DNA from: Luscinia megarhynchos
Taxonomy: Eukaryota > Chordata > Aves > Passeriformes > Turdidae
DNA length: 64,000 nt
Direction of reading: 5' to 3'
Assembly: GCA_034336665.1 (NCBI GenBank)
Contig: CM067592.1
Span: 39,001,889 to 39,065,888, forward strand
The position numbers and the translations under genes are program-made. This document shows positions 3,005 to 51,933 of the stretch, in pieces. Within the stretch, counting starts at the first letter, position 1; the number at the start of each line of letters is the position of its first letter. The notes beneath the pieces are model-generated. The model was not told the origin of the DNA. It did no database searches and saw only the letters and a program-made list of their open reading frames with translations.

Positions 3005-7626
<4,622 letters not shown>

Positions 7627-8893: not shown

Positions 8894-8896
<3 letters not shown>

Positions 8897-9471: not shown

Positions 9472-9476
9472 ATATT
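9472..9476 (+). repeat. Target-site duplication, right copy (ATATT)
   Basis: Directly follows the CA end of the LTR and equals the five bases before its start at 7622-7626. Confidence 0.75.
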
Positions 9477-10076: not shown

Positions 10077-11432
<1,356 letters not shown>

Positions 11433-12320: not shown

Positions 12321-15300
12321 TTGTTTCCAACTAAAGAATCCAAAATATTTTAAAAGGAATGTTTTTCAACGTCTTGTTAAAAAAGAAGAATCTTTATTTC
12401 AGTTTTTTACCAAGGTGAAAGAAAAAAAGTAGACTTTTTGCAGTGTTTAACTGATAAAACTATTTTCCCTTTTTCTTACATAAAGAAAACAGAAAGAACA
12501 AGAAAGTTAAAGAAGACAGTTAGAAGAAAGAGTTGTAATAATAAACTTTAGCATTCTAAAAACTGGAGAAAATACTCTGATTTCTCTAGGTTGTGTTGTG
12601 CTTTTTTGTCATTACCTGTTTATGGTAAGTGAAGCAGAAAGAATTTCTTCAGACATTTTGAATCCTGAAATATTTAATGAGCAGTATTTAGAAGATTACA
12701 CATTTCTGGCTGTATGAACAGTGCTGTTGCCATAGCTATAAGCCACAGATGTTGCAACTGGAGAAGTACATAGCAACCAACATCTTTAGGCATGCAGCTT
12801 CTCTTTCCATAAGTTTTAGAAACACTGAATTCATTATTTATCTTTCTATACACAAATATTTGCACCTTTTCTCTCCTGTACTATTAAAATTTCACTAAAT
12901 TCTAAACTCTTAACTTTCAATGGGGAAAAAAAAAATTAAATAAAAATACTCCAAACAAACCAACCAATCAAAACAAAAGCCAGAACAGTCAGTGAATTGC
13001 CTTCAATTCACTAGAGTAGCAATAGGAAATGAGAGTTAGTGACTTTGAATGCCCACTTTAATCTTCATGCTTTGTAATTCCACTAACAAAGCACATAAAG
13101 GTGGAAATATATTATAATAAAAATCAGAGAAGATCTGCTATTTGGAGGGTGAGACCCTCCTAGTCCTCTTGTCCCTTCAAATCCTATTTGTAGTCTGTAA
13201 CTAATATAACTACCCATGAAAGTGCCAATTAGTTTGTTGACTGAACCTGAACCAGGCCCCAGAAGTTCGAGTACTGTAAGCAAATGATATGCTCCATTAA
13301 GATTTAAATTTTTGCAAAATTGTTTTTGGAGAGCAGCCACCTCATGAAAATTAATTTAAGTTTTGAAAACAGACGGTATATGGTTTGGGGTGTTTTTGTT
13401 GGTTTTTTTTTTTACTGTAGGGTATATTTAAACCGTGTGGTTTTAATTGAAAATTTGGGTTTTGGCTTCAACAGTAACCTCAAAATACTTCAAATACCCC
13501 TTTAACACTGTTCAGAATGGCCAACTTAGAAACCAGTATTTTTTTGCTATAATTTTACAAGGCTTTTATTTGGGAAAACCACATTTTAGAGCGTATCAAT
13601 CATGTTGAATATTAAATGGATCTTTATTGCTTGTTTTAAGCAGTCTAAAGGTTAAAATACGTATTTTGGATTTTTTTTCAGTCTATGTCCTCTTCAGAAA
13701 AAGAGAGGACAAAATCAGACTGATTTTTCTCTAGGCTACAGTACTAAAGGTGTATCCAAAACCTTTGAAAGCCACCTGTGAGCTTTTTAGAGGAAAATTA
13801 TATTCAACATGACAGACAGTCCTGTCGTTACAGCAGAACGCAACTACTGTTTCATGGTCCAATCCAGCAATCTTTAAAACATAGAACAACATACAACAAT
13901 ATAATGAGCTTTTTTCTTCCTACCCCTGTTTACAGGCTGTTCAGACCACTCCATTCTTATTCCAAATCATGTATAGGGAACATGGCATTACTTTAGATTA
14001 TGCAGATTCCTCACAACCTACACAGACGTCTAATGGTTAAAAACATGTAGTGTGGCCCTCAGTTAATAGGAATAATGCACCTAATAATTGCACCTAATAA
14101 ACACTATTTGCATAAATATTAATGGGGTTATACACTTAACCCAGTATAACCCCTTGCTGAATCTTAGTTGATGCATTTACAGATACTATATTTTACTGCT
14201 TTGTAAAAGCTTGAAAACATACCATCTGCCTCAAAGAATTCAGTTTTGGAAACACTGAAATACTGTATTGTCGTTTAGCTGTAAACAGTAACAGTGCCAC
14301 TCAGCAGCATAGATATCTAAGCAGATAACTCTTCACAGCATAGTTTGTTCTATGAAGTAAAAACATTCTGGATTGTTACTGAAGCCTAAACTGAGAGCCT
14401 GAACTGCTCTCAAACTTGGTTTAGCTGTCCTACTCAACTTCTAACCTGCCAATTTCTTTATCTCAAGCTACTTTAACCCTGCTTTGAAGACAGATCTATT
14501 CAGTTCATTATGCTGTCAGAAATCACAGATGCGCTCTGCACTGCACTGGTAAAGCCAAGTCCTGTCCTTGGAAGGGCATTGTCAAGCTCAGAATGACTAT
14601 GAAGGTAAGCTTGCATCAAGACAAGGTAAAAAAAAGGTCCTTGGTTTCTCTGTCCATCCTGTATGTGTAAAGCACACTTGGGTGTTGACCAGGGATAATA
14701 CAGGGATCCTGTCCAAAACTTCCTCACCAATCAAAAATTCTCAAGAAATTAAACTGTGTAGGACCCAGACTTCAGATGACATGACACTTATTTACAAATA
14801 TAACTTTTACTGGATAATATATCATATATACACTAAAAAACACAGTGCTTAATAATATGAACAAAGCTTTTACATATGTTGTGTACCCACTGCAATAAAT
14901 ATATTTATTACAAATATGACTTAAAAAATATCCATATGTAAATAATTATATGTATACTTAACTGCAAATCCCCATTCAGTGTTTAATGAAGAGTACTGGA
15001 ACAGGACCAAACCTGAACAATTTTGTTGGAAGAGAAGATGTGGTACTAATGTACCTCAGGATGGGTCTAACTTCATCATGTGGTTTATGAATTCTACTAC
15101 CAACACCAGAAAAAGTAGTTGAAGAAATCAAAATGAAGCAGCTCAGAATTGTTTGTATAAACTACTGCATAAAAATAATGCAGTAGGATTAACACATCTC
15201 TCCCATTTTCTCCCAACACTTCTAAGTTACATCCAAGTTCATATAGCAGTTTAAATGATTTACATCTCAGTAAAAAAATAAGTGCCTATTCCAGATAACT

Positions 15301-18300
15301 TAGTACACAGTACAAGTACACATCAATTGGCATCTTTTCTGAGCTAGAATCCAAACACCCAGACTCATCCCTCTCATCCTATTACCACTGTGGTGAGTTA
15401 TTGCTAGTCTATTGAAGTTGCTCCCAAAAGTCAACCGGTATGAACTTCAGTTAAAGTGAAAAAAATGTGTAAGTCTTTCACTCTGACCAGAGAACACTGT
15501 ACCAGACAATTGCCTCCTTTCCTAGATGTCCACATTGCAATTATGGCTAAAACAAAATGATCACAGAAGTTAAATTCACAGATTTTTAAGACTCCATTGG
15601 TTATAGAATATATATAATAAAAAGCTGGCTGATAAGTTTAGCATAAAATATTATCAGTGGCATTATAGTAAGAAGCACTGTAAGTTATTTTTCACTAAAT
15701 CTTGTCTCTGAATTGTTTGAAGATACAGTTGAAATATACTAGTGTTACATTAAATTGATCAAAACACACAGCAAGTACACATACTCACAAAGCTGTGTTC
15801 ATAATGTTTTTTGTAAAAAAAAATGACAGCACATAATAAGACAACCTGATTAATGTAGACCAGATACACAGAAAAAAAGCTTGGCAGAAAACGTCATATA
15901 TTGTTGTTCCAGTAAATGTTCATTGCTTGTAACACCTAAATCCCCACTACTGTACTACTGTACTTACAGCTTTCCATCACTGTCACTTAGAGATGGGATA
16001 GTGGGATAAATTGTATCAAAGTTCTGTCATTCTATCTCTTTTATTTCTTTACATTTGGTGAGCGTTTGATCCACTGTCATGGTTCTTGTTCATTTTTTTT
16101 TTCTTTAACTATGTCAGTGGAATATTAGCATAACTTTACATAAGAGAATAGCTCCAGACTTAAGAGATGAAGAGAGGGGGAGACCACACTTGCCAGTTAA
16201 TTTATTAAAAGTGACATATGCTATTTGTAAATGGGCTTGAGATATTCCTTCTGCCTTTGTGTTTTGTTTGGGACTTATTTTTGGGGGGTTCTTTTTTTTC
16301 TATTTTTTTGTTGTGGATTTTGTTCTTTTTGAGAAAAAAATTGAAGCAATCTGGTTTCATATTAATACAGAAGAGGGAGATTTCAACATCTAAAATTAAG
16401 CTAATGGAAAAAGGTTGTGGGTTTTTTTCCTGTTATAGTAATAGCAGCTGGATATAGCATTGCAGGGATGTGTAAAAGGTTATGAATCTAGAGCCCTTGA
16501 ACAGCTAATGTTAGTAAGAAGAGATTTATCAACAACTCGCTGTGCTCGTTTGGAAATGTGCTTAATAAAATGTGTTTTCTGTCTCTCTTTTTTCCTTTAA
16601 TGTTCAATACAGCTGAAATGAACAGGTACTTAATTATCCAGATGACATGCTATGGCGACTAATGAATAAAATTTAAAAAAAAATTGTTGTAAGCTAGTAG
16701 CCATAACAGGCGTTTTGAATTCTTCCATCTACCTTATTTCCTTTCATTCATTCCAACATAATAAAAAATTTTATGTGAAGTAACTTGTCACCATCAGAGG
16801 GAGCTCTTGTATTGACTCAACTAGGCACAACATTCTCCCTTTAAAAATTATCAAAACAATTCTTTTTATAAAATCCTAGCTTATAGTATGAATCTACTAT
16901 GTTTTGTTTATTACTACGTAATCACGTGGACCTCAGAGATATTCCTGAAAATTGAAAATATGAAAGTGTTTCATAATTATGTTTCTGAAATTCTACATAA
17001 TCTTCAACAACTCTCGAAGATTAGCTAACTCTTTATCTGAAATTTCTATAGATATTGTTTTTATAATATGGATCCATAGACCATGAATATAGTTTATATG
17101 ATGATATTAATTATATAATTATTAATATCTTTTTGGATTATATTATTATATTATTCCAAAGATAACTGTGATGATCTCAGAAGATAACAACCAAAGTAGT
17201 TTTGGTAGTTTTATATTCACTTTTTCCCCTCTTGTTTTTTAATAAATCCATATGCAATAATCTGTAAAATATGAATACATTGAATTTTGAATATGGGCTG
17301 AAGTTCAACTGTCCTTTCTACTTTCAAATCAATTTGAAGTTTAATCATTACTCTTCTGGGTAAATGAATGTTTATACTAGTGGCATTTTATCTGGAGTGC
17401 AAAACTGAATTTATACACTTAGAAATAAATAACGCCATAACTGTTATGGAATATTTTCAAAGAGCAGCCACATACTTAACCCGTTATTTCCACATATTTA
17501 TTTGTTAAATTTTGAAAAAAAAAATGTGCAGATGCTATATTTCTCATTGTATGAAATTTAGGTAGGAATCACAATTCACTATTGTACTTCTGTAAAACAT
17601 GACATAACCCAGAGACTACCAGAAAATAATTCAGGTAATTTACAACTAAAATACATTTAGTGTAACAGCCATGTATGAAATCCACTGAAATGTCAAAACA
17701 GTATGTGGGAATTGTTTGCTCAAAGCAATATGAAAAATAAAAAATCCTTTATTAATATTATAGTATAAATTTTCTTTTCATAAAATTTAACACCTTGCTT
17801 TAAAATGAAATGATTAGAAAGGAAAGAAACCTTATTAACTATGCAACATAGAAACTGCACAGCAAATATTCTTACATTCTGAGGATCATAAACAATAAAA
17901 TAGTTCAATAAAAAGGTTTCTTACTAAATTATACCTGTGGCTTTTCATATATGATGTCTTATGATTTCTACCTTTAGAGAAATTTCTGTTAATGAATTCA
18001 CTTTCAACTCATCATTATAGATTTAGATTAGTGTATAACATCAAGTTAACATGACAATCTGTTTGTTAGGTTGCTACAACATTAGTCAAATATCTCACTC
18101 ATTTCACCAAAAACCTTAGTGGCAAAATTTCACTTTTCACATAGGGCTTGCCACTCTGATAATTAGAAAACCTTTCAAAAGCAACCAACTTCCATCTTTT
18201 TAGCTTCACTCTGATGAAGGATACTATGAAATGAAAATCCAAAGAAACTCACTGAGATTAAATGTTTTGGATATGATGTGAACAATAAGGTTTTAAGAAT

Positions 18301-21300
18301 GTTCTGTATACCAATACAAATTCTGTGCAAAAGTGTACAGAAAATGTATATTAAGATTGCATTCAGTAGTTATCAGGAACCAGTAAAAACATGTGGGGAA
18401 TGTTTCTGTTAAGAACATTTAGAATATGAAAGTAGAGCTTCAGTTTTTCAGAAAAATCAGCATCCATGGTGGAGCCTACTGCTCTAGTGGGCGTCTGATG
18501 CTTCAGAAATGCAATGCAGAGAGCAAAGTCTGCACGGTAAACATACTGCTAGATCACTTAGGAGTATCTACTAGAGTGCTCTCTTTGGGCCCAGGGGATG
18601 TGTCTTAAAAGCCACACTGAATGAAACAAAACCAAGTTCCTAGGTATTTGTCATATGGAGGATTCGTTTCTGACACACACTTCAGGTATTAGGATATCCT
18701 AAGCAGCAAAGTAATTGTAGTTCATTCTTCCCAGTACTCCTGTGCAAATGAATGGCTAGCAAATACCAGTGACCAGGAAATCTGGCACACAATGAGAACA
18801 ATCCAGAGCACATGATGGGAAGCCAGCAGAATGGACACACCTTCAACCCTCAGCAAATGGGTACCTTGTGGAAGGGAAAGAACTGACTGATGTGAGGGTA
18901 CCACATCAGCTACAGCAAACAGCAAGCAGAGAGTTGGTTGGGTGCCTACACAGAGGAAGGAATAAAGAAAGACTTTGCAGAAAAAACATTAAGTTAAATC
19001 TTCAAATAGAGATGGGAGAAGAAAATTTTAGGTGACAAAGCTTCCTTCCAGGTACAAATTATGGCTCAGGTAAAATATTACACATGCTTTGCAGCCTGAA
19101 GACACGTTAGTGAGGATTCTTCTTAAGGTTATCTGGTGGAAAGTAAAAGGAAAGCCAATATAATATAATAATATTTACAATAATTCTCATACATAATTTT
19201 CTATGTGAAACTTAAAATGATCAGGCTCCTTTACCACTCATCCCATATCCTCCACAGCATATCTTATCTTCTCAGTTTGCTAAGCTAAAAAAACAGAAAA
19301 AAATTGTATCAGGAACTGACAATGTTTTGACTTCAGCTATCCCAACTCCTGTATCCCAAGTTTAAAAATACAAGTCTAAGTTACACTAGTACTGATTTAC
19401 CTCAAGAGTCCATAGTATTTACTTGAGTCCCTAGTGTTACTGCCTACATCACTGAGATCAAGCTTCATGCTAAGGCTGCTATAGCATGTGAGAAATACAT
19501 AACCCAGAAGTAAGAACCCAAAAGTATATATCTTAAGGATACAACAGGGTGAACATAGCACTGAATTTCAAATTTTAAAGGTCTTTTATGGTTTTTCAAC
19601 TCTTAATAGTCAGAAATCAGACTTTACATGGTATAAATGGGAATAAATTTCACTCAGTGCATAAGACATCATTAACTATAACTCTTTCAGAGGAGGCGAC
19701 TGAATATATGGGAATAATGCTGGTAATTTGTGATGCTGATCTCTTTAGTTTATGTAAACATAGCAAACGTTTAGTTGTACCTCTATGTGTACATCTATCA
19801 CTATGGGTTAAAGCTAAAATTCAGACTGAAGGAAATGGGTTTAAGCTCACATAGATTGTAAAGTCCACACTGCAAGACCTTGAACGATCTACCACTTTCT
19901 TTGAATAATTAACTGCTTTCTGGATAAAGTGGCATTGAATATGCATATGAAGGATGTTTCTTTATATTAAAAATAATCTATATTAAATGAAAAAATCAAC
20001 AAATTTTGTTTTCACTTGGTATTTCTAGAAGGAGGCTCTCATGCCAGCAACAAACTTGTGAGACAAAAAATCAACACAACTCCCATGAAGTGTTGCCAGC
20101 TTCTAATATCACAATTTCCAGAATACTGAATTCATGTCCAACACTTATGAAATGCTTGAAGGATAAGACACAATGAAAGTCATTTGTGCATGACACTGAA
20201 AATTATGATCAAATGACTACAGGTACATGGGTGGTCATGTCTCTCAAACTAAATTATTCTTTGCTCAAGAGTAGTCTGGAAATTAATTTTTATTTAATTA
20301 GCTTTGATACTAAAAAGAGACCATGTGGGAATAGCTTTTCTAAGAGGAAAAAATAACACTCCAGAGTGGAATGAAGATGGTCCTAAGCCCATTTTTAAAC
20401 CAAAATTGGGGATGGATAGCATATCATGGCTTTCTGTACAGCAGGAAAAGAAAATAACTGAGTAGTTAGAAGTTTTTATTTTATGTAGCCATTGTTTGTG
20501 GAACTTAAAGCTCCATAAAATACTATTGTCTTTTATAAGAATCTAAAATATAAAAATGCCAGTTCTTTGGCTAAATGATTCTGACATGAGATTTAATTTT
20601 AAAAAAATTTAGATTATTTTTGATGTATGGAAACCTGCAATAATCCATAAGAAAGAGTGTGTTAGATTAATTCATACTGCTTTAGGTTTTTTGAAATATT
20701 TCAACCTGAAGGATCTTGCTTACACTGTAACATCTTTAACTGCCTTTGGTGCATACTGGTGCTGCAGAATGGTTATAAATTAAGCTATTTCAAGTGGATA
20801 ATTTTTGCAAGTCATCACTACCTACTTGGTGCATCTGGAAAAAAGTAAAGTGCAGGCAGAAGAAAATGGAGAATTATCCTCTTACACCTTGAGAAAATCA
20901 TGCATTTGAACAGATGAACTGATTCTGAAACGCTTTTGAAAAACATTCAAACTGAGATCTAACTAAGTGAGAACCTGAAGGAATTCTAAAATATCTAAAT
21001 TTGAACTCTAGTGGTGGGTTTGTCTTTAATTTTTTACTTTTTTATTTAGTCCCCTGTAGGGGTTCTTGGGGGGAAAAAGAAATATCACGTGACTCATAAC
21101 AAACACAAAAATCTGTCTCAATGTTATTCCCCCAGTTGAATTAAGGACATGTAAAGTTGCAGAGATGTATATTTGTAAAATTATTCTAACTCCACTTTAT
21201 AAACATAAATTGCATCAGACAGAAGTAATTCTAATGAGAAGTGTTATCTCTTTCACTTGCAACCAACATTTAAGTGCACACAGTTTAACTCACAATTCAC

Positions 21301-30602: not shown

Positions 30603-31050
30603 TGCCCAGAGAAGGACAGTGAAGATATCTGAGGGCTGGGGCACTTGTCTTACGAAGATAGGCTGAGAGAGTTGGGCTGTTCAGCCTGAAGAAGTGCAGG
30701 GCTCAGGGAGACCTTAGAGCAGCCTTCTAGTAAAAGGGGGCCTACGAGAAAGATGGAGACAGACTATTCACAGGGGCACAAAGTGATAGGAGAAGACAGA
30801 ATACCTTTAAACTGAAAGAAGAGAGATTAAGATTAGGCATTAATTTGGAATTCATTTTTTACTGTGCGGGTGGTGAGGCACTGAAACAGTTTGCTCATGA
30901 AGCTGCGGATGCACCATCCCTAGAAGTGCTCAAGGCTGGTTTGTATGAGCAACAAGGTCTAGGGGAAGGTGAGCCTGCCCATGGCAAGACTGCTGAAACT
31001 GGATGATTTTTACAGTCCCTTCCAACATATACCATTCTATGGTTCTGTAT
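30603..31050 (+). mobile_element. CR1 LINE, 3' fragment
   Basis: Contains the conserved CR1 3' landmarks in order: a GGCTGAGAGAGTTGGGCTGTTCAGCCTG-like segment near 30660, AAACTGAAAGAAGAGAGATT near 30818, then GTCCCTTCCAACATATACCA and TTCTATGGTTCTGT at the end. CR1 is the dominant LINE of birds and is usually 5'-truncated, as here. It is diverged, with no reading frame. A garbled inverted image of it appears at about 38141-38500. Confidence 0.92.
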
Positions 31051-31476
31051 GTATATGACTAATATATTTTATAATAAACTGAAATACAGTCGTACACTAT
31101 AAAATATTGTATGTAGAATGTACATGTATACACATAGAAAAATGTAGATGAATATGCAAAATATCAACAATGCCATGTTGCCAGTAGTACTGCAAATGAT
31201 GGGTTTTAAGAGTCTTCATCACCTCATTTGAGAGTTTTATCTCATAATTTCAGGTCAGTACTTTTCAAGTCCTTGTTAAAAAACCTTTAAAATCACAGGT
31301 TTCTCACCTGTATCTGCAATAAAAAGTAAAATGCAATAAAATTATAACAAACTTCCTTTTAACTTATTTTTTGCCAAGAATGTTGATGAAGTATAGTTCT
31401 CAGAATCTCTGAATATTCTTTTTGTCATTATAATAAATTAAGGAATGCTAATAGTATTAAATTAAATTTCTCCGGC

Positions 31477-31577
31477 GCATGTTGTGACTCCTGGGAATGG
31501 TGTTGGGCAGGGCCAGAAATTGGACTTAATGATACTTATGGGTCCCTTCCAACTCAGGTTATTCTGTGATTCTGTGA
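31477..31577 (+). mobile_element. CR1 LINE, short 3' tail
   Basis: The segment GGCCAGAAATTGGACTTAAT, followed by GGGTCCCTTCCAACTCAGG and TTCTGTGATTCTGTGA, is the terminal part of a CR1 element. It has the same orientation as the CR1 fragment 430 bp before it but is of a different subtype, so it is a separate insertion. Confidence 0.9.
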
Positions 31578-34500: not shown

Positions 34501-34998
34501 CACAAACAAAATCAAAGGCAGGCCACAAAGAGAAAACACAATATAAAACACAGTGCAGAGCAGTTTCCATCTTGACTGCAGTTGAAGAATAGCTGTTGCT
34601 ACAGAGTATATCATTTTTATTGTAGAACTCTTTTAGCACATCTCTGAGGAATATCTTGAACCACTACTCAAGTAGGTCAACAAAAATGAACCGTAACTTG
34701 ATAAAGGTGGCTTTTAGAGATTTAAATTATTTCCATACCATTTAAGTCATTTTCATCATTGTAATTGTAACTGTCAGGAGCCCAATTAATTCATATATTG
34801 AAGTCACCGCTCTTTGGTATACCTGCCCAAGACTGAGATATTACACCCGTGTGTGAATTGAGAGACTGAAGTGAGCAAGAAATGGGAAAATCAGCTTTTC
34901 ATTTCTAGGTGACAGTTTAAATTCATTCCAACTCAGCAGTGATTGAATAACGCAGACAAAGATTGCATGTTGATCTGTGGAAGATTTTGTTAATCTTA
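31578..34998. other. AT-rich non-coding stretch up to the hairpin centre
   Basis: No exon, RNA gene or clear mobile element is seen. A T/G-rich low-complexity patch lies at 31738-31820. This is the innermost part of the left arm of the inverted repeat; its reverse complement can be followed at about 35033-37600. Confidence 0.6.
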
Positions 34999-35032
34999 AT
35001 CCAGTTTCTAGACAAAAAGTTCAGCATTTACT
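34999..35032. other. Spacer (loop) between the two arms of the inverted repeat
   Basis: About 34 bases around AGTTTCTAGACAAAAAGTTC that do not pair with either arm; edges are uncertain by some ten bases. On the left, GATTGCATG...AAGATTTTGTTAATCTT is the last recognisable arm sequence. On the right, GATTAAC and GCGTTGTTCAGTCAT begin the noisy complement. I see no match to the commonly known hairpin adapter of single-molecule libraries. Confidence 0.6.
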
Positions 35033-38000
35033 GATAGATTAACGTACTTGCGTTGTTCAGTCATAACGAGGTTGAAATAATTTAGAAATAACATTTTTCC
35101 CCATTTCTTCTTCTTCAATCTCAATACACCTACGTCAATATCTCGGTCTTGAGCAGGCCTGACTCAATGCTAACAATTGGTGGGCTCTGATACAATGAAA
35201 ATGTTTTAAATAATGGAAGCTAATTAAATGCTAAAGCTCACCTTTATCAATGCCGGTTTTCAATCAGTGGTTCAAAGATCTTCACTCGAAGATAACTAAG
35301 GACTACCTGGCAAAAATGATGCTCTGTAACTATTCTTCTTTGCAGTCAGAACAAACTGCTCTACACTGTGACATATTGTGTTTTTCTTTATTGACCTGCC
35401 CCAATTTTGTTTGTGCGTCGCCAATAATTCTATGAGGGAAGCCTCTGTTTATTTTGATAAGATGATATACACTAAGGAATGATAATCTATTTGTATTTTC
35501 AAAAGATTGTTCAAAAGAAATGTTTGCAATACCAGCAATAATAAGGTTCCAGTAGAAAAAACTTTCATGTATATTAGTTATATCTCTGAAGCCTGGTGTT
35601 GGTACAAAATTTTTCTATGCCGAACAACTCTTATGAATTATGAAATGACTTTCGAATTCAAGCATGTTTATTTCTGATAGAGAAAAATGACTGCTAACAC
35701 CTAAAAAGTATTACTTTTAAAACTGCTGCAACGATCTGGCTGATGGCACGAACTGACTATACGATCATAAACTTTCAACGTACACTGGAAAAATACCGCT
35801 ATTTTGTTGTCTTTCTGGCGTCAGCAGAGCATTGTGGTTGCTCGGTTGATTCCTTTTGCAATAACAAAACAATTCTAATAACTGGGCAATACGTCGAATT
35901 GTTATTCTGATGCGGCTTGCTCGAAGTTTTTAATCTATATAATCTTCTTTGAAAACTTCACCCACTAGCCTAACAATAGTCTAATTTTTATAATTTTCTT
36001 TCAATAATAACCTATGGTAAAGTATTGATCGAAATTATTCACGGGCTTGGTACAAATGCTCAATCGTCAGTATTGAAGGATGTGAACCAGCATTGCGATA
36101 AAAACGTAAACATTCTATTATATTGCAGATGAGAAGATACGAGGAGTTAACTAATTTGGTGGAAATTGATCGATTCGGTACAAGAAAACAGTTCTGTGCT
36201 TAACTGTGCTGCTAAACTCATAGCATTATTATTGGCTGGCGGTTACATCATGTAAATCGGGGTACCGTCCTTTTATTGGGATTACTGACAATCTCATCGA
36301 AATAACATTCAGCTAATAATATGAACAATGTTAATCTGTGCATTCTGCAAGCTTGCGTGATGGTCAAAGGATTTTCTATGGATGCATTTTTTCCTTATCG
36401 TGATTGCTTAACCACTTTGTCTTAATGAATATGGACTATGGTAAAATGCCAAAATCATCAGTACTTCAGCTTTAGGCAGGTTGATATTATTTCTGTTGTG
36501 TTATTGATCGCTTTGAACTACGGCAATGTAGATATGGACTCTAAACTAGAAAGGCAAAACTACTCACTTTAAACGGTTTTGATATAAATATGTTTAAACA
36601 TTTAAAGGCGACGCTAATAACAATTTATGTTCCCTTGCTGTCGGCTCAGTAGATTGATTATTGCCTGATAATCTCATTTTATAAATTATAAATGATGATT
36701 TTGTTCGTCAATTGAATTTTTATTGAAGTTGAAATCTGATGTTTTATATCTACAATAACTGTCTGTTCATTACGAATTGGCATTTCTTGCCTGTCAAACT
36801 TTCTCTCCATATATTCCGGTCGCTGAAAAACTGCTTTTAAGCTTCATTCAGTCATCTTTTATTGATTGAGGATTGATTGACCCTGGCCCCAGGTAACAAC
36901 TATAAATGCGGCTGACGTGCTCTTTAGATCAATAATGAGCGATAAATGTTAGAGAATGGGCTCTTGGCACCATCTCGCTTTAACGAATATATTCATATAT
37001 GTAGGTAGTGTTTGTTTCGAATGAAGTATTAGGCATACTATTTTAAACTGTCATGGTTTATTTCTTCTTAGATTTCAATCTCTTATACTTTCACCATTCC
37101 TGTTATATAATAATTTTTGCGGTTCAATAACATCTTGTCTTCTCTATAACTGACCCGATGCTCCCCTCATATCACTCGCCCACAAAAATATCGTTATACT
37201 GAAAATCAACAATAACTGGTTCTTTCCTGTTTTATCTGTTTGTATTCATTATGTCCGGAAATGGTGTAATGCCTCTTTCAACTTTGAAAGTACAGCCAGG
37301 CTCATCTGATGCCATTGTATCGACCTCCCAAAGACGCTCGCTTTTTTGATGCGGTAACACCTGATAACCGGTATTTATTCCTTGTCCATGACAATTAATG
37401 GTAGCACCAATTATCACGAAACTAAATTAACCGTGTCAATAAGTACGAGAATTGCTGATTATTTTTAGCATTAACAATTTATAGCAGAACACTAGCGGTG
37501 CGAATCAGCCTTTAGAAACGAACTGAAGCTGCTGAAACTTAGCACAAAATGGCCAGCAAGCAACAATGAAGGCTGTCACCAAACTTCGGCTTCATGTTGA
37601 TATTTCATGGTGGAGAAGTCTGGATGATTTTTAGATGATGCTTTCAATGATACGAACGGAAGATAATTTTCTCTTATTTAGAAATTGAAATTTAGGGCTC
37701 ATAAATGTATTAATAATTTCTGGAAGTCTGCAGATAACCTGAGTTGAAGGTTATATCATTGGAATCAATTTCTGTTACCGATCTGACATCTTTGACTAAT
37801 TTAATACTATTAGCATTCATAATTTATTATAATGACGAAAATATTCGAATTCTGAAAAAAGACCTGCGCGGCATTCTTGACGAAACAAGTTAAAGAAGTT
37901 TGTTAATTATTGCATTTTACGACGAATACGTTAAGGTTTTTAACAAGGAGCTTAATACTGATACGAAATTATGAGATAAAACTCTCAAATGGTGATGAAG

Positions 38001-41000
38001 AACTCTAAGCCATCGTTTCACGTACGGCAACATGGCATTATTTTATATTCATCTACGATTTTCTATCGATATTCATGTGCGTTCTGCGTACGATGATACG
38101 TAATTATTCGACTGTTGTTTATTATATTGGTCATGTACATGCAAGAACCATGGAATGTGCTGGCGGAAGGGACTGTAAATATCGTCGGCTAACGATCTTG
38201 CCGTGAACGAATACGACGCTTGAAACCGGCGCTTGACTTCGAAGATGAACGTCACGGCTTCGTAACTATTTGTTTCGATGCCACGAAAAATGATTTCAGG
38301 TAATGCTTACAATCTTCTTCTTCGGTTTAGGCTGTTCTGTCTTCTATCGCTGATGCCCTGTGGCCTGGTCTGTCCATGTTTCTCGTGAGCCTGGAGAACC
38401 TCTAGCTATTTCGGGCTGAACGGCAACTCTCTCGACTTCATCTTCGTGAACATGCTGACCTCGGTGTCACCTATAAGGCGTGGTGGCAGCTATTGAAGTT
38501 ATGTTATGAGATAATAAAATGGTGAGCAGGCTTTCTTGAAAAAGCATGTCGGATCTTCGATAACAAAGTTTCTATATTTTTTGATCTTAAGTTATCGATT
38601 ATTTGCATTGTTAAAGTGTCTTACTGATGATTGATATATTGTTTGCTGATTCACCGAAGGGTAAACCCAAACAACAGGCTCATGAGATATTGCCAGTTTT
38701 GCGGTGATTCTGGCTGGAACATCACAGATTCACCGTGCAAATATGTGTTCTTTGACGTTTCGTGTTGATGAAACGACTCTATGATGACCGTTACGTCTGT
38801 GGCTTTGGCAATAGTTGACCGGTTTTCTCCTGATTTGAATCCGGAAGCTTTAATTGAACCGGTAAACTAGATATAGTTGAAGAATTGAAGTGATTGTTGA
38901 TTTCATTTATTAACCATGTTTTATTTGGTCTTTATTCAGCTTTAATTAGCGAAGTTAAATAGATTTCTATACGAACATTAAGTTGAATATGCTGAAAACA
39001 AACGGTCATCTTTCGCCCATCCTTTATTTCATGCTGTTTGAAGTTGTAATGTCCGTTGCGAATGCGAAATACTTCGAGTGCGGTGAACATTGAAGTAACG
39101 CGGTAGTTCGGTCGTTTGCGTTTGCGAAAGAGTGCTAGGTATTTAATGTCGAAGCTGGCACCTATTGAAGTTGAGAACATCAAACATGCATATCGAGGAA
39201 AATGGTGAATAATTGGCTATACTTTTATGCGTTTTAGTAATATGCCAGTATCTTGGAGTTAATAATACCGTTTCTTGATGTTTACTATCTGTATTAGCCT
39301 GGCTGCCGCAATAAATCAGAATTCTTCTCATTTTCCTGTTGTAAATGGCATTTTAAATGAAGGTGATAAATTTGAGATAATATCCATTTTTTATTTCAGG
39401 ATCTGTGTAAAATATGGGATCACCGGTTACTGTTAACTGTTTGAACTGCCGTGTCGGCATTCTTTTTTGATAAAGATGTCAAAGCACCCAACCACTTACC
39501 GTATTGATTATTCGAGGTCGCTTATTCATCTGATATTTCTTCCGTCTTCCACCCATGAAATATGAAATTCCTCTGTTTACCTCTCGTACTGATCACCAGA
39601 GGTAGTGTCTCGCCATCGGGGATTTCATCGAATGATACTTTGCGTCTTGAAATGCGAAGAGCAATAATCTGGAAACGAGTGAGTATGCATACTTGTCTCA
39701 TTCTTTCACAACCTGTTGGCAAAACGAAAAGAAAGGAGAGAACAGAACCTGATGACGAACGAATAACAACACTTTTTCTTTCTTTGAGGAGCAGGCGCTG
39801 GAAAAACCCTGGTAACGACTATCGACTTCGTATGGCAGAGGAGATTTGAATGTTGTCCCATCCCAATTGCCATGCGATGAGCAAATGTTATTCTCGAAGC
39901 ATTCTAAAGAAGTATGATAACGGTAAGCAACTATCTTAATTTGTATTTCTATGCTTCTGTTTTGCAGAGGCAATTCATGATGAAAAAATTGTTAATGTTC
40001 AGTGGTTTGAAGCTGAAGTTGATTAACGGCGTTACGAGCTCTCATAAAATCTATCTCATCTGTGCTTCGAGTATCACGGAGTTCATATTCAATGTCATTG
40101 CGAAATTAACTAAAGATAACGTTATTTCCATAGTATGCGCATATTTGAAAGACTCCTTCGGTGAGGCCGAGCTATTTCAATGAAGCACTGTGCTGAAATG
40201 CTGTTGCTAATGCGAACGCTTAATCGTAAATGCTGTTTTGAGCCCCGGTAGCGTAACCATTTTGGTGAAATCATGCAACAGCCAGAAGCACCAAAACGGT
40301 AGAGAAAATTGGCATGTTCTTTGAACAACATGAAGCAATTATGTTTGTCTCTTTACCGAAGGTGGAAATGTTTTTGCGTAATGTATGAAATGGTTAAGCT
40401 ATTGATCTGTTCCTGAAGTCTTGTGTTGCCATTTAATTTACTATGCGATATGATCTCAGTACTTCTTAAAAATGTAAATATATATATGTATATATGAAAT
40501 AAAGGCAAATGAAAATGACTACTGAATGGTTATGACGGCTTTGACTGAATTTAGCATATGTTGCATGTAAAGATAACATTGATTGGTGAAATACTATCTT
40601 CTGGCTTCGTGCTAATGTGCGCAGCCAAGTCACGATTACCTTTCCTCCAGACACCAATGATTTCGTAAAATGACGACTGACAGTCTTTCAAACACCTGAG
40701 CTCATTTATGATATCGGCTTATGGAGACAAGGTGAAGTCTTTATATTATGAAGGGGAATTTGTATGAGGACGGGGAACTTCACTGTGATGTGTTGTTCGA
40801 TTTTTCGGTGCGGGTGACGAATTGCTGAAATAGAACGAATTCGAAGGTATCGTGATAAAGACGACATGAAGATGAAGGATAATGTGGCTGGTTCGCAAAA
40901 GTATTGAGCGTAGTGTGACTGAAATCTCAATGAAGCGTTCGATACACTACGGCTGCCAACGCCCACTGTAATGACTTCTTTCTGTTTGAAGAATGTTTGA

Positions 41001-44000
41001 CTACCGAACAACAACTGTTCGCTGAACACGTAGTATCGTCTGACTTTACTCCTTGTGAATCTTGCATTGCATTCATTACGGGAAGTATGTATAAGGATGA
41101 CTGAAATGGTGGCATTGTCGCCCAAGGTAAGGTATTTCATATCACCCGGTTTATGTGACTAACTCAAAATATATTGTAGTGCAAATAGCTAGGGGATACT
41201 GGCTATGATGAGAAATAGCGTTACATGTTTTATGTCTTTACAATACAAAATTCGCCGATTCTTTCTAGAGGTATTGTATATCAACTTTGTTTGCATATGT
41301 TTACATCATACTATTAAGTTTGGGATGTTTGGTGAAATCGCATTATTGTATTTTCTGTTGTATATCTGTTAGTTAATATTTATCGTAATATTATATTTGT
41401 TTGAAGACAATTTGTTGTTCTATGAGTGCTGCGTGCATTTGGTTGGTAATGTTGATATTGGAGACGAAGCCTAACGTTTTCATTCCACTAGCGTTATCTT
41501 TCGAAAGCAAAATGTTATTACGAAATCTATATGAAAATATCTGGCATAGAATAGAGGAGACCGGTGTAGTAATGAAGACTTTGTACCAACTTTGTATGTG
41601 GGCTAAGAAGATAAATAAATGTCAAAAGTCATATTTTGTTAGATCCCGAATGCTCAGTGCGATTAACCCTGCTAACAAAGGTAACATTAAAAATAACGAA
41701 AAATCCTCTGTCAGGTAATTTGAATGTGGATGTCTTTGAACAATACGGCTTATCAATTTGACAGATGATTAACGGCAAATGCTTTATACTGGCGTGAACG
41801 AGGAGAAGTTTATGTTGAAGATGTTGATGTGAATGCCGAAAACTCTGAGTTCTTTGAGTGGCGGCTTCTGCAATGATGTCAGGTGCCAATAAGGTACTGT
41901 AAATGCGCTAATATGAAATAGGCTGCGTGGCAAAAATATGTTGTTGTTGACGTTGGCTAGGTGAACTTTATTAATGGAAAGGCACTTACTGTGCTGTGTT
42001 TAATGACCAAAGTTGAATCCCGCTAATGTGATTGAAATTTTTCTTGGGAAATTATTCAATCAGGTCTCAGGTTGTATAAGTTTAATTTGAAAATCATACA
42101 CTCTTTAGCAGTGACAACTAAGCTGACTCATGTTTAAATATGTTGAAATTGCCGAAGTAACGATGGCTATTTTTAGTGACTTTCACAGTTTCCATTCTTA
42201 AACTTTGACTATTCTGTTTGAAAATTCAATAAGCGTAAAGCTGAATGCAATGACTTTTGCGGTGCGTCAGTAGCAAAATTCGGTATTTTTGGTTTACGTT
42301 GACGGCACTTTCCGGAACAAGCGCTTATTAATCAGGCGACTTTTAAAATGAAAATGCAAATAAAGAGTGTTTTAAAGAATAATACCAACGGAAAACAGAT
42401 CTCCGAAAGCACAAACCAGCTTTCTGAAATATGAAGATGAAAATTGAACATAGTCTAGTTTGATGGTATGTAAAGTTCTTCGGTGAATTAGTATCCGTAA
42501 TGGTTACGATGTTGTCATGCGTCTTCAAACTTATGATATTGCATTTCCTTTCATCGACATGTTTTTCTATTTTCATTTCTCACAATAAAGACCAAACTTT
42601 ATCATTTATTAGTATGGAAGCGTGTATCTTTCTCACGTAATTGAATCTTTAACATGCGTCGGTCGGTGCTGCCAGTATGAACCAATGACATAGCTGAGGC
42701 AAGTGTTTTTGCTTAGCGTCAATATTAAATAATAAATCGACGCAATTTAACCAGTAAGGTTTTGAGGTTTTCTTTTCTTTGCTCCATGGTGTACCATTGA
42801 AAAATCACCAACTTTGCGTGGAATTGAGCTATAATTGAATTTTCGGGCTTGTTGTTCGTCACAGAGGAACGAAATGTTTCTGGCTGGTCTGTTTCGGGAT
42901 TTTCTAAGCATCGTCAATTCAACGAGATTTTTGGTGTTGCGCTGGATTGAGAATTCCATTCGCTTTATTTTTGAAAATGCGAAGCAATCAGGCAAACTGA
43001 AGGTCGCTGTTGAAGTGAGAACTTCTGCGGGATTAATTTTTTGTTCTTGGTGTACAACGGAACCCATGCTATTTCTACGATTGATAACATATTCTCGACG
43101 AGGACATTCTGTCGCTTATGGTGGATATTACTGACTTTGGCTTTACGATATTGACCGGAAGGCGGCTGTTGTCTGGCTGCGGTATTCGGTGTGTACTGAC
43201 TCAATGAATTCGCCAGACTTGAACGCAACGACGAGAATATACTGGATGAACTTGGTCTCTTACACTGCTTTGCACAGCTTCTGTTGGTTACTATGTCGGG
43301 GTTAGTTTTGCTGGGCTGATATCGGGCTGAAGCTGCAGAATCTCACAGATTCTAGCGGTTGAGTTTGACTGAAAGTGAACAGAGGTTATGGCGGGACAAA
43401 ATGAAATTGACTTTTATTGCGGTCGGTGACATATGTCGACCTCGGGAGAACATTTCTCGCTGTCGACGTGATAAAACTTTAGCGGCCAGAACGGAATAAT
43501 CTGGGGTAGGGCGATGAGAACTGCGTCAGTTGATTATTTCAATACGTGTGCGAAGCATATAGCGCCGAAACGGTCAGAGCCTGGAGAAAAGAACAGCAGC
43601 TGGGCGGCGGCGCTGATATGCAGGAACTGGTGACGTCTTTGTAAATGCTAAGCGTTTCTTGGTTTTGTTTCTAAAGCTTTGAAAGCATGTGGCGGGCTTG
43701 TCTGCGGCAACTTTACCTCTGTTGACAAGGAAAAAGCTTTACGAAATTCGTGGCGTTATTACAAAATTAGTAAGATTATTATGATTTTTTGGGGAAATTG
43801 GTGTTAAGATATTCTGTTCTTCTGCATAGTGGTATACAATGGCATTCATGCGACGTAATGAAGCTGGAACTGAGTTGGTTACAACGTCGCTTTTGCGAAT
43901 GAATGTTTTCTTCTTGTTTTCAATGACTTTTCATTTTACTTTTCTGATTCTGTTCTGTTACGCAATGCCGAATGATATATTTCTACTGTTGCCGGGAACA

Positions 44001-47000
44001 CTAAATCTGAATCTTTTAACGGCTTAGGCACTCGAACGCCCAAACTTAATCCGAAATGGAAAGATTTGATAGATGATGTCGTCTATTTGCTGAAGGGGAA
44101 GCTTTGGCATACAGAGGAGTCATGTTATTGCTATACTATTGCATTTGTTTCTTTCTCTTTAAATAAAGGCAGAGACCGTGGGGTGGTGTTGACATCACTT
44201 TGTCCCATCAGTCATGCCGGCAACATGGTAATAGGCATATAAACTCATGAATTATTTGTGTTAACTACTTTCATGGTCTTCGGCTGTAAACGAAACAACA
44301 AGGTAGAAGCGCAAACAATGCGTTATCGGCTTGTCATTCGGCTCTAATTAACTGATGCAGAACTGACCCGCGTGACGGACCGTGCCTCTCGGTTTTCTTT
44401 CGACAATTCATCATAACTGGCAGCGGCATGATTCTTAGTTACGGTCTGTGTGCACATTAACAATACGATCGATACGGGCTATGAACTTCTGGTACTGAAC
44501 GTGACAACTTTCGCTTTACTACAACAAAGATGAAGACAGGCGAACGAAGATGACTAACGTGCATTACTGCGATACTGTCATGAGACGAACTCGCGGCGGA
44601 CAGAAGCGAATGGTCGCACGGGCTTTAATACTTTCTTGAGTATGCTGAAACGAGTCTGAGAGAAAGATGCGAAGGCACGGTTTGGCGTTTTTTAATGGTT
44701 TTGGGGCCGGTTTTGTTTACGATTTGGAACTTTTGGGCGGATTTCGTTGAATAAAAATTAATAGTCGGATTTGAAATTGCATGATAGATACAATGATAGT
44801 AACAAATTAATGTTTTAATGTGTTTCTTCGTTGAGTTTCTTATTTCGTGCGCAGAAGATGTTTGTATTTAAATAAATTTACTGGCTGTCCTTTATAATGC
44901 TGGAAATCTTCCTGAGCTATTGATTTTAAAATGGACTCAACGAATATTGGCATTAATATTTTAAATACAATATTGGTATGATTCGACTGAAAAGGTAAAT
45001 CTTTTACTTTCGAATCATTTGGTACGATTGTTTGACTGGTATTTCTGACGCATCTAAAATGACTGCAATGATACCGTAAACAAATGTATTTCTGTTCTCA
45101 TTTGACCCTTCTGATGCAAGCGTCAGTACTGAAGCATTCTTCTTCTATATTACGATCGTTATTCAATGATGACAAAAGGTTTGAGAACAAACATTCTGAA
45201 GATGCCTGATAGACACGGAGTCCGCTACGACGAGTGATTCATAGCTTTAACATGAGTTGAAGTAAAGGGATATGCGTGACTCGAATTCTACCAGCCAAGC
45301 AGATTAGATCTCCGGAATATAGCTTGAAAATCTTTCTTGAAGGCGACTTCCTACTGTTTGAATTGATTTACTCGGTATCGGGTGGTAAAGCTGATGGTGT
45401 TTCGCCATTTCCCCAATTCGAACGATATTGAACATATTGCTCGGCTATTATTGGCTGTTGCTATCTGGGTACGGCTTATCTCAGTTCTCGAAATCGCTTC
45501 ATGATGATCTGGCTTCGTGTGATCTTTTAATATTGAACTGATTTGTTTCGGAACGACGCTTTCATGGAAATAAGAATGGAGTTTCTGCTGTGGCACACTT
45601 ATCAAGGAAGGAATGGCTGTTATCAATGACGAAAATGTTTTAAACTTTGAAGTGCCTGTCGGGGCAGATAATGACAATCTTCTTATTATTTCTTTTGCTT
45701 ATCTGTAAACTATGTTAACGCATGAAGGCCTTAACGTCATAATGATGGTGAAGTTAAGCTATTGATAGCGCCATGTTGATTTGCAAAGTGAAAAGAAGCA
45801 CTTCGTGGGGCTGCAATCGGTACATGTTTATAAGGGAATAGTTTGCAAGCCCGTACTCTGCAACTTTATGTCATGATTGGCGGAGGTATTGGACAATTTT
45901 GTGTTTCAGCAGTCATTGATCCACTGAAGTTTATGGTAAAGTGAACAAACCCACCGCTGGGATTCAGAACTAGATGTTTTAGGGCTTCATCTCGGTTTGA
46001 AGCTCGGATAAATCTGTTCAAATCATCGATTTCTCGAAGATCTTCAAGGTACTTTTCCAGATGCTGAAAGTAGGCCGATGATGAACTTTGCAAAAGTGGC
46101 AACTTATTCTGACCATTCTGCGGCACCATGCCAAAGTTAGATATTGCGGTGTGAATCCTTCAGGTTGAAGCGAAGCGTGGTGTCTAACACTCTTTCTTTT
46201 GGTTATTGCGGAGTTTCCATACGTCAAAATGATCTGGGGGTACTTTGAATAAATCTCGTGCGACTGGCAAAAGGGCGAACAATAATTTATGGGCCAAGTT
46301 CCGCAGGCAATGGCTACGTAAAATAAAGGCTTCAACTACTCGGTTATTTTCTTTCTGCTGTACTGTTCTCCATCCCAATTTTGATTTAAAACTGGCTTCA
46401 TTCCGCTTTCTGGAGATTATTTTCTAACTATTCCCACATGATCTCTTTGTATCAAAGCTAATTAAATAAATTAATTTCAGACTATAGCCGAGCAAGAATA
46501 TGAATGACCGCCATATAAGTCATTTGATCATGTTTTCGGTGTCATCACAAATATTTTCATTTCGGCATTTCGCCAGTTGATTCGTATTCGAAGTGAATGA
46601 TAAGCGGCGAATTGTGATTGATTACAAGTTTGTTGCTGGCGGGCCTCGCTAGAAATACCGGAGTGAAATTTCGTTGATTTTCATTTAATATGAATTGACT
46701 TTTAATATAAAGAAGGCATCGCTTCTTTCCGTATTCAACTGCATCCGGAAACCCGGTTATTATTGAAAGTGTTAATCTTAATTCTTGCGGTGAACTTTAC
46801 GACATTTCGCTTCGGTCTGGAGTACAGCGACTGAATAATACGCATACACAACTAAACGTTTCTTTATAAACTAGAGATCGGCATCTGGAAATTACCACTT
46901 TATGTTGATGGCCTCTGAAGGACATAGTTAATGATGATAATGTATGAGAACTATTCCCATTGCCGTAATGAATCGATTTCTGATAAGTTGAAAAACCATA

Positions 47001-50000
47001 AAACGCTGAAATTTGAAATTCAGTGCTATACAATTGTCATAGATTTTGGTTGCGCTACCAGTTGTATTTCTCGTATACGCTCGAAGCGATCTGAAATCGT
47101 ACTGAGCAGACTTTGTATTTGGCTTGAAGTTCGAGACTATTTGAGCATTTGTCCGTGATACTTTCTGTTTTGGCAGCAAGCTGAAGATAACGTGGAAGAT
47201 GATGAGCACACGATCACGAAGTTTCGCATGGCATGTTGTGAAATTATTGTGAAATTGACCATGTTATGTTGGCTTTCATGCCATAACGAAATCTCACTAG
47301 GCCAATGATATTTTACCTGAATATGGTAACGCGGAAAACTTTTGATACTAAGGCTGGCTTCTCCCCTCTATTTGATTTAACTTAATGTTTCTTAAGTCTT
47401 GCTATTCGCTTTCTGTGAGCGCAACCAACTTCTCTGCTTGCTTTGTTTGCTGGCTGATGTTGCCTAAATCAATCGGTTCCCTTCCTGGTGCCATTTGGTG
47501 TCCCATTCTGCTGACTCCCCATCGTATTAACCAGTTGATTTATTGATGCCGAATTATTGTTGCTAACCATTCGTGCACGGAATGCTGTACAGTACTTTGC
47601 TGCTTGGGATATCTGACACTGGTGTAACGAATCTCTTGAGCAAATGCCTGGAACGGTTTTCGTTCATTCGGTGTGATGAACCCCGAAACGCTCACAATGT
47701 AAATGTCACAACGGTATGTTAACGTGCGCTGCTACTTGACGAACGCCCGCTGTGAGCCATGAGTGCTTTGTGAAACTGACTCCTAACTGCACCGGTAAAT
47801 GTTGGCGGCAGGCATTTCACGCGGTTACTGACGGCTTGCTGAAGTATACCATCGCTGTTCAGCCTCATCAGATATCAAAATAAAATAATGGCAAAATATC
47901 TTCTTAATCAATACATGAAAATTTTAGCATAATATTGACGAACATTTTCATGTTGCTTGAGCAATTACACCTTCACTGTTTTTGTTTTCGATGTGTAACA
48001 TAAATGTATTTGGTGGCAGAGTACACCAGATTATTTTCTGGTAGTCGGGTTATGTCATGTTTTACGAAGTACGGCTGGTGGTGATTTTACACAAATTAAG
48101 CACGTAATGGCATCTGCGTTTTTCGAAATTGCTGAAATAGTATTGAAGCACAACTTCTTTAATGATTCGTAACATTATGGCGTTATTTCTGAACCAGTAT
48201 GGTCGGTTTTGCCGCTGGTATAGGCATTCATTTTGCCCGGAAAACAATGATTAAACTTCAGAGGCCGATTTGTAGAAAGGGCAGTTGAGCTCCCGAAATT
48301 CAATGTGTTCATATTTTGGGTGCATGTAATTTATTAAAGGAGGAAAGAACGGTAAACTGCCAAAACTGCTGTTATCTTCTGGTCATCACGGTGTCTTTTG
48401 AATAATATAATAATATGTCAAAGATGGTAATGATGCTGTAATTATTTTGTCGTCGCTGCCAAACTGTTCATGCTATGAATCCATGTTATGAAACATTGTC
48501 TGTAAAATTTCGAATGAGATTGGCTAATCTTCGAGGATTGTTGAAGGTATTATGAGCACTTTTCATATTTCGGCAATTATACTTGGTCACGTGATGTTAA
48601 TAAACGAAAACATGGTTCATGCACAACTGAGACTGTAAAGAACTGAACATTGTTTTAGAGAGTGTTGACCTTTGAACGATGAAACCCTGACTGATGACAG
48701 TACCCTGCGCCAAAATTTTTATCAGGCGGAATGAATGAAAAATAGGCAGGTATTCAAAACGCCTGGCTTTAACAATTTTTTAAATTTTATTCGTGATCAT
48801 GTCTGGTTTGCAACCCATTGGCCATTGAAGAGGAGACGGCTATTAGCATTTCCAAGCGACTTTGAACGGTGATAATCTCTTCTTTACCCAACGACCGGCT
48901 TTGTTCGAAACTTCAGATTCGCGGCAGCTTGCATCACTGCAATATATGACTCAACAACATTATAACGAGGAAACCCGCAACCACCGACCGAAATTTTGAA
49001 TTGTTGTCTCATAACTATGACGAGCCGGATTTAACTTCAGTTTTTCTCGAAAACGAAAATCCCACAAATAAAACTTTGAGAGCTTCAAGGATGCATTGGT
49101 GAGAAGAATATCTCGAAGCCCACACGGCATGTGATACTTTTAATAGACCGGCTTGACAGTATTGATGCCCCTATGGGAATTATGAATTCTTTCTTACGTA
49201 TTGAAGTTGGCTTTCTTTATTCCGCTGACATGGTTAAAGCGAAGGCCGGTGGTCAAACCGCCAATGTGAAAAGGGCTCAGAATGACGAACTTTGTTTGGT
49301 TATCATATCCCCATCTCGGTGACTGTAGTACGGTAAGTACGTGAATGAGGAAGTTTAGGCTGTGGTGCGACTGGAACAATATGCTGGCGTTTTCTGCCAG
49401 CTTTTTCTGTATTGTCACGGTCTGCATATCGGGTGTCGCTGATAACGTCATTTTTTGCAAAAAGCATTGTGAACACGGCTTTGGTAATATTAACTTTGCT
49501 GACGGTGTTTGATATTTAATCTTGACTTGGTATATTTCGGCTTTGGCCCATCTTCAAACTAAAGAGGTGAATTTGAGTAACTCAGCTTGCGGTCTTTCTT
49601 GCTATATGCCGCACGATGGCTATTTTTATGCTGAAGCTTATCGGCCAGCTGTGTAAATTCTTTTACATGGCCAATGAACAAAATGCTGGTGCTAAACCGA
49701 TACTGTTTTAACCGCCAGTACGTGTTTGTCACAGAAGAGGAACATTAATCTGGTGCAATTCACTACGGTCGGTATTTTTTCGCGCAACTGAGGTTCATGC
49801 GACTTTGAACGGCTTTCGATTTAACAATATTTCACGGTAATGAGGAAGTCTGAACCGTTTTGAATTCTGCTCGAAAAATAGCAGTGATATTGACCTTATT
49901 GCTGATTGATAACTAGGATACGGAGATGAGCACTTGCACGAGGATGTGAAAAACTGCTATGTGAAGACGGATGTAACAGAAAGTGTTGAGGAGAAGACAT

Positions 50001-51833
50001 CGGTATCTACTGCATTGTTTTATGCGGTAGTTGCTGCAAGCAGTGCGAACGCTTCATTTGTTTCTTCAACTACTTTTTTCTGGTGTTGACCAGTAAATTC
50101 GCCAAACCCATGATGGCAATCTGGTACGTGCCACGTAATACTAATTTTCAACAAATTGTTCGAGGTTCGGTCTGCTCTAAATTAAACGATTATGTACATA
50201 TGAACATATGAATGTACAGGGTCGTATTTATGACCAAATATTGCGGTACAACGTAATGAAAACTTTGTTCTATTGATAGCTTTGGTAGCGCTGTTTCTCA
50301 TTATTCCGGTAAAGTGCTGACTGGCACAAATGAATATTCGTAATCGGTCTGGGTCTACACATTTCTTGAACACGATTTGACGAAGTTTGGACGGGACAAC
50401 ATTATCACGGTCATGTGCTTTTACGCTGAAGGACGAAGAAACCGGGACGCTTTTGCGCTGATGTTGATGCGAAGCTTGCCTTCATCGAGTCATTCTGGCT
50501 TGACAATAACCCTTCAGGACGGGACTTCGGCTTTACCACGTGCGTCTGTGTTCTGAACGGCATAATGGCTGAACAGATCTTGTCTTCAAAGCGGGGTTAA
50601 TGGCGAATAAAGAAAATTGGCGGTAGAAGTTGAGAGTAAGGACCTTCAGAAGCTTCAAGTTTTGAAGCAGTTCAGGCGTTGGGCTTCAGTAACAATCCGG
50701 GAATATTTTTACTTCATCAGAACAAACTATTAACGATGAAGTTAACGAATATTCTATAACAGCGGTAACCGCTGTTACTGTTTACGGCTGAAAGCGACAA
50801 TGCAATGTTTCGGTACCGAACTATTAACGGCAGGTATTATGTTTTCGAAGCTTTTACAAAGCGGCAAAGCGGTGTCTTGTAAATGCGTCGGCAAATTCAG
50901 CGGGGGTATCGCGCCCGATGTTATGCAATATGGTGTTTGACCAGGTAACGGTCAGTGGTGCATTATTCCCTATTATTGAGGGCCCTTAATGTTTTTAACC
51001 ATTATCTTATTGTAGCGTAATCTGCATAATGAAACAATGCCGTAATTCCCTATACGCAATTTAGCGAGCAGCTTTAACAAACGAGGGCGGGAAAGAAAAG
51101 CTCATTATTGGACGTATGTTGACTACCTATGTTTAAAGATTGCTGAACGGTTGGACTTAACTTTAACGTGAGACTGTGGCTCATGTTGAATATGGTACCA
51201 AAACAAAAAAGCTTCAGGTACTGGATACACCTTTGGCTGCTGACACAGAAAAATCGGTTTTCGGTTTGTCTATAACTTTCTGAAATGAAATCCCGAAAAC
51301 CGTATTTTAACGACTGCTTAAAACGGCAATAGATCATTTAATATTCGGCATGATTGTTCTGGGGACTTTCCCAAATACGCACAACAGAGAGTATGGCGAA
51401 AATACTGGTTTTCTAAGTTGTGCATTCTGAACGTGTTGAGAGGTATTTGGTACGGGTTGCTGACCAAACTAATTTTGAAAACGCGGTTCTTACGACAAAA
51501 CCGGCAAAAGCGCCCCAATTCCCTATTGCCGTCGTTTTTCAAACTTAAATTAATTTTCGTAGTTAACCTTCCAAGCTGGTTTGCAAAATTTGGAAATCTT
51601 AATGAGCATATCATTTGGCATTCGAGATTTCGTCAACAATTGGTGGAACTACAGGCATAGTTTGAGAGGGTTCAGAAAGAATTTGGAAGTGCTCGCCTTC
51701 AGCGAATATTCTGATTTTGACCGCCAATATGACTCGCAACGTTGAACGGAACCAAAAGCATGAAGATGGGAAAAAGAATAAGCAACTTCAAACCTGTGCT
51801 TTGCCGGTGAGGGCGGTCGCGACTGGCAATAAA
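35033..51833 (-). repeat. Noisy inverted copy of about 13000-34998 (probable assembly artefact)
   Basis: Read in reverse complement, this stretch follows the left arm in order. Anchor pairs: 35539-35559 with 34302-34323; 35927-35967 with 33819-33863; 36651-36702 with about 32844-32894 (nearly perfect over 50 bases); 36842-36860 with 32649-32667 (19 of 19); 38141-38500 with the CR1 at 30603-31050; 47480-47610 with about 18730-18860; 51583-51620 with about 13290-13322. Between anchors it is riddled with substitutions and small deletions, so about 22.0 kb is represented by 16.8 kb. It is enriched in CpG and short of long homopolymers compared with its source. It abuts the N gap. I interpret it as an uncorrected fold-back long read. 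None of its open frames should be called genes. Confidence 0.9.
38141..38500 (-). repeat. Garbled inverted image of the CR1 fragment
   Basis: GAACCATGGAATGTGC and GGAAGGGACTGTAAA at 38145-38180 mirror the 3' end of the CR1 at 30603-31050. GGGCTGAACGGCAACTCTCT near 38410 mirrors its internal CR1 landmark. It is part of the noisy arm and not an independent insertion. Confidence 0.85.
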
Positions 51834-51933
51834 NNNNNNNNNNNNNNNNNNNNNNNNNNNNNNNNNNNNNNNNNNNNNNNNNNNNNNNNNNNNNNNNNNN
51901 NNNNNNNNNNNNNNNNNNNNNNNNNNNNNNNNN
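51834..51933. other. Scaffold gap, exactly 100 N
   Basis: One hundred N bases, the conventional size for a join of unknown length. It separates the noisy inverted arm from clean AT-rich sequence, so the noisy arm sits at the end of a contig. Confidence 0.99.

Follow-up and report, generated by a model that had tools for sequence, protein, structure and literature searches.

We analysed a stretch of 64,000 nucleotides (the window) of the Luscinia megarhynchos assembly and found that positions 35036–51833 on the minus strand (the right arm) are a collinear reverse-complement copy of positions 12993–34996 on the plus strand (the left arm), folded about a loop of about 39 bases. The inversion of the copy, the one-sidedness of its corruption, the strand specificity of its errors and its termination at a scaffold gap were directly demonstrated. 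The right arm is almost certainly an artefact of some kind, reflecting sequencing error and not biology, and a fold-back nanopore read very probably supplied it as its second half. Within the latter explanation, the nanopore platform, the involvement of a single read and the failure of polishing are the parts that we infer.

Inverted Repeat and Its Place in the Scaffold

The window is located at 39.0 Mb on a 74.4-Mb scaffold of an assembly comprising 1.09 Gb in 1,235 contigs. A first-pass annotation had described a giant inverted repeat with conserved order, and self-BLAST bore this out. The self-BLAST pieces, with identities of 66–81%, formed a collinear minus-strand chain pairing 13281–34592 with 35330–51617 (E = 4.8e-144 for the best piece). 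Compared directly, the left and right arms shared 25 minus-strand pieces (E ≤ 1e-5). The same settings yielded 0 pieces when the left arm was compared with the flank before it, with the flank after the gap, and with the right arm reversed but not complemented. Global alignment of 12801–35000 to the reverse complement of 35033–51833, a check that the first-pass annotation had proposed, likewise recovered a collinear copy, with 12993 and 51833 as the outermost paired bases.

The innermost exact inverted 8-base pair, GTTAATCT, joins 34989–34996 with 35036–35043. By this pair, the loop that had been described is present (34997–35035) but measures about 39 bases rather than 34; the innermost 70–100 bases of the arms align poorly, and the loop borders are correspondingly approximate. 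In a fold-back, a second segment on the opposite strand covers the same place and lies no more than 200 bases from the end of the first, and other reads at the site would not support the break. Here, about 39 bases of loop separate the opposite-strand segment from the first, and the segment runs collinearly back to 12993. The right arm and its contig end at a 100-N scaffold gap (51834–51933), the window's sole N run. Between the contig that follows this gap and the sequence preceding it, BLAST found no match at E ≤ 1e-3, so what truly follows the left arm cannot be read here.

A fold-back predicts no further copy of the arms in the genome, and this was the case for both pieces searched against it, 34500–35500 and 41000–42500, which matched only themselves and the other arm. 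When the arms were compared with 18 contig starts, the stretch preceding the window (L023) and the flanks, the left arm had one short hit, in L023, and the right arm had no hit. Screening of the 10-kb contig starts for inverted repeats of their own left 17 without hits and yielded five hits in one (L017), two of them about 125–130 bases long; the 18 come from 20 stretches, the remaining two of which adjoin the window or lie within it. No fold-back arms were seen in the first 10 kb of these 18 contigs, at settings that were less sensitive than those of the window self-BLAST and were not tried on the known case. The window had no match in Rfam. It holds nine open frames that reach 110 codons; eight were without a Pfam match at E ≤ 0.01, and the ninth crosses the N gap.

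One-Sided Errors in the Right Arm

The first-pass annotation had noted that the left arm looks normal and the right arm corrupted, a description that agrees with the gaps, the CpG content, the strand-asymmetric errors and the comparison with CR1-like copies reported below. The global alignment contained 14,231 matches, 1,537 mismatches, 1,033 extra right-arm bases and 6,432 absent left-arm bases, 192 of which form an overhang before 12993. With this overhang set aside, the 22,008 bases of the left arm (12993–35000) comprise 14,231 matched, 1,537 mismatched and 6,240 unpaired bases, i.e., 28% are missing from the right arm. The right arm is 24% shorter than the left (16,801 versus 22,008 bases). 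Most absent runs were short (1,775 of 2,060 were 1–5 bases long), and the largest gap inside the arms did not exceed 42 bases. The gap asymmetry was stable across four scoring schemes applied to four blocks (910–1,055 absent versus 135–280 extra). The loss of left-arm bases ranged from 21% to 51% across fifteen 1,500-base windows, the first of which includes the 192-base overhang. The highest value came from 17301–18800 aligned to 47536–48292, where 51% of left-arm bases are missing; the other fourteen windows lost 21–35%. Inverted duplicates read by nanopore are marked by a shorter second arm with missed and wrong calls, and the right arm has these features.

The 66–81% identity of the BLAST pieces might suggest an old segmental duplication in inverted orientation, by now diverged to about 70% identity; we consider it extremely unlikely. 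Parallel decay of two arms would give approximately equal base loss, so the one-sided gaps speak against it. Furthermore, since no gap inside the arms is longer than 42 bases, neither arm has gained or lost an element. A biological duplication would be expected to show divergence common to both arms, which was not what we found, either in the gaps or, as described below, relative to other CR1-like copies.

Base composition also differed between the arms. The right arm had an observed/expected CpG ratio of 1.11 and the left arm one of 0.16, the latter close to the values in the flanks (0.13 for 1–7900, 0.14 for 10001–12800 and 0.12 for 51934–64000; the excluded part, 7901–10000, holds a GC-rich stretch where CpG reaches 0.73 in 250-base windows). 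In counts, this corresponds to 695 CpGs in 16,799 right-arm bases versus 97 in 22,006 left-arm bases. That only one of the arms has CpG at the level expected by chance is a further point against an old duplication. Among the 695 right-arm CpGs, 48 align to a left-arm CpG and 209 to CpA, and 218 span a deletion. GC content was 0.388 in the right arm versus 0.333 in the left (measured over 13001–35000), and runs of at least six A or T were depleted in the right arm (0.95 versus 4.00 per kb). With CpG and GC values like those of the flanks and a closer resemblance to CR1-like copies, the left arm looks like normal genomic DNA and was taken as the true copy.

The excluded GC-rich stretch (about 500 bases, GC 0.72–0.77) has in or beside it a perfect CAG run of 10.7 copies (8864–8895) and a GC-rich tandem array of 9.5 copies of 22-base units (8985–9194); four overlapping open frames at this stretch were without a Pfam match. 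Elsewhere in the assembly, three 2.5-kb windows within the first 10 kb of one contig (C500, stretch L013) had an observed/expected CpG ratio of about 4, with 2,500 N after them; these windows are possibly satellite.

On the right-arm strand, A>G (592) far outnumbered G>A (145), T>C (139) and C>T (50). The excess of A>G over T>C persisted when four scoring schemes were applied to four blocks (178–218 versus 33–53). An asymmetry between A>G and T>C would not be expected of DNA evolving as a double strand, whereas a device that reads a single strand can produce one. The strand-asymmetric spectrum therefore likewise argues against an old duplication. The A>G substitutions depended strongly on context, affecting 88 of 357 sites at CAG versus one of 229 at GAG on the right-arm strand; this bias may mark a version of the pore or base-caller. 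It also suggested enzymatic A-to-G editing, as adenosine deaminases have neighbour-base preferences. We rejected editing because it would not delete 28% of bases, and because 218 of the 695 CpGs span a deletion. According to the available text of Delahaye and Nicolas (PMC8486125), nanopore A–G substitutions occur at three to five times the frequency of transversions. That text gives no favoured direction for these errors, whereas A>G greatly exceeds G>A here, which counts against a simple match.

Accuracy was uneven along the right arm: identity in 200-column windows ranged from 0.22 to 0.81, whereas column shuffling gave mean extremes of 0.50 and 0.73. Varying translocation speed would fit such patchiness. 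The near-perfect anchor named in the first-pass annotation (32844–32894 with 36651–36702) is real, being a 51-base stretch with two differing positions within the noisy arm; the longest exact run of the alignment is 30 bases.

The error profile also bears on whether the right arm came from another kind of palindromic long read, either a PacBio continuous long read whose adapter was missed or a palindrome that arose during whole-genome amplification. PacBio adapters can indeed be missed, which counts in favour of such a source. The PacBio error profile, however, is rich in insertions, unlike that of the right arm, where missing bases and A>G calls specific to one strand prevail. Whole-genome amplification is described as creating artificial palindromes in long reads in the accessible part of PMC6218980, but a shorter second arm is the nanopore sign in that of PMC7229812. 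We regard these other sources as very unlikely.

Comparison with CR1-Like Copies

The first-pass annotation had named a CR1 element among its anchor pairs, and CR1-like pieces, which recur across the genome and which we take to be CR1, are indeed present in the left arm. Two of these served to decide which arm is altered: the 3' part of a CR1-like repeat at 30900–31050 on the plus strand, with at least five genomic copies at 75–77% identity, and a second CR1-like 3' end at 31465–31585 on the same strand, with at least 33 genomic copies at 82–91% identity. Copies were listed after scoring 40 of 2,245 candidates, and we compared all five listed for the first piece (over 30900–31052) and 15 of the 33 listed for the second. 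Because the copies were picked for resembling the left arm, the comparison is biased toward that arm.

The right arm alone deviated from the other copies in 115 columns (54 in 31465–31585 and 61 in 30900–31052), whereas the left arm alone deviated in 15 (six and nine, respectively). In the same order of pieces, both arms agreed against the other copies in seven and 18 columns, all three differed in nine and 12, all agreed in 44 and 58, and three and four columns were without a clear majority. Measured against the majority of the copies, differences in 31465–31585 numbered 22 in 118 columns for the left arm and 70 in 112 for the right; in 30900–31052 they numbered 39 in 157 and 91 in 158, respectively. 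The other CR1-like copies themselves differed from their majority at 7–20% of positions; the 39 in 157 of the left arm exceeds the value of every one of the five copies compared. The genome's other CR1-like copies thus side with the left arm, though they were chosen by likeness to it. That the divergence is one-sided relative to these copies is another observation at odds with an old duplication.

Origin of the Right Arm and Consequences for the Assembly

The first-pass annotation had proposed a fold-back long read kept at a contig end, a reading supported by the one-sided corruption, the strand-specific errors and the stop at the scaffold gap. In such a scenario, one DNA duplex would have been read as template and then as complement, without the read being split. 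The strands would re-anneal behind the pore, pulling the second strand through too fast, which would leave skipped and miscalled bases. The read would have protruded past the last well-covered position, at about 34996, and the assembler would have retained its second half as an extension of the contig. Polishing would then have left this half unmended, possibly since short reads map to the true copy, as the first-pass annotation suggested, and the scaffolder would have set the 100-N gap after it.

Published observations on nanopore reads are compatible with these steps. The available text of Spealman, Burrell and Gresham 2020 (PMC7229812) reports that at an inverted duplicate the second arm is miscalled, of low quality and shorter, and proposes a ratchet driven by re-annealing behind the pore, which would draw the strand through. 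Raised current, fewer samples per base and low phred scores also characterise this effect. The right arm, 24% shorter and full of skips, fits both this observation and the proposed mechanism. As in the cases described there (PMC7229812), the second arm is miscalled, gapped and shorter, with trouble from the junction onward; those cases, however, concern reads of real inverted duplications, whereas ours is a finished assembly and an inversion that we judge unreal. Similarly, the fold-back artefact reads described by Heinz et al. 2026 (PMC12870357, available text) are near-complete concatenations of forward and reverse sequence with little or no sequence between them, as here. They were observed at read level, whereas the present one apparently survived into a chromosome-scale scaffold. 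A tumour study cited in the accessible part of the same paper put fold-backs at typically 1–4% of genomic reads.

When the two strands of a molecule are read in succession by nanopore, an adapter can lie between them, though some such reads lack it. We fitted four adapter forms to the loop region. The best fit was the nanopore start adapter at 35041–35074 (score 23.5), a score reached by four of 167 right-arm control windows, one of 219 left-arm control windows and 14 of 500 shuffles; the remaining three forms scored 11.5, 14.5 and 18.0. These bases match the left-arm copy about as closely (score 22.5, a value attained by 13 of 500 shuffles); this left-arm score in turn falls short of the lower quartile for true-copy stretches, 24.6. 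The stretch 35041–35074, which resembles a start adapter by eye, is thus unconvincing as one, given the controls and the similar fit of the left-arm copy. A search of the genome for the start adapter with up to three mismatches found none.

No adapter is proven in the loop, which is a point for a real, recent and nearly identical palindrome of about 44 kb in the sequenced individual, with its second arm miscalled through the nanopore ratchet effect. The effect was indeed seen by Spealman et al. at genuine inverted duplications (PMC7229812, available text). Reads from the opposite strand, however, would be expected to traverse the right arm first, and cleanly, and should give it a better consensus, which makes a true palindrome unlikely. 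In addition, the contig ends at the point at which the copy arrives back at 12993, and fold-back reads are reportedly common (PMC12870357, available text). Overall, we consider a true palindrome highly unlikely; if it were true, a real structural variant would be concealed under the noise.

Under the favoured fold-back nanopore explanation, the right arm is judged absent from the genome and is a candidate for removal after a check against reads. Among the papers that our searches listed, none describes an avian assembly with a fold-back arm in its title or the opening of its abstract. Some 16.8 kb of the 74-Mb scaffold is probably false and could be mistaken for CpG-rich sequence or for a segmental duplication that has diverged. 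Next to a gap, a jump in the CpG ratio coupled with depletion of homopolymers may offer a cheap way to flag such arms without reads, an idea derived from this single case. The false right arm could mislead annotation or work on structural variants; it matters for the quality of the assembly and is ordinary as biology.
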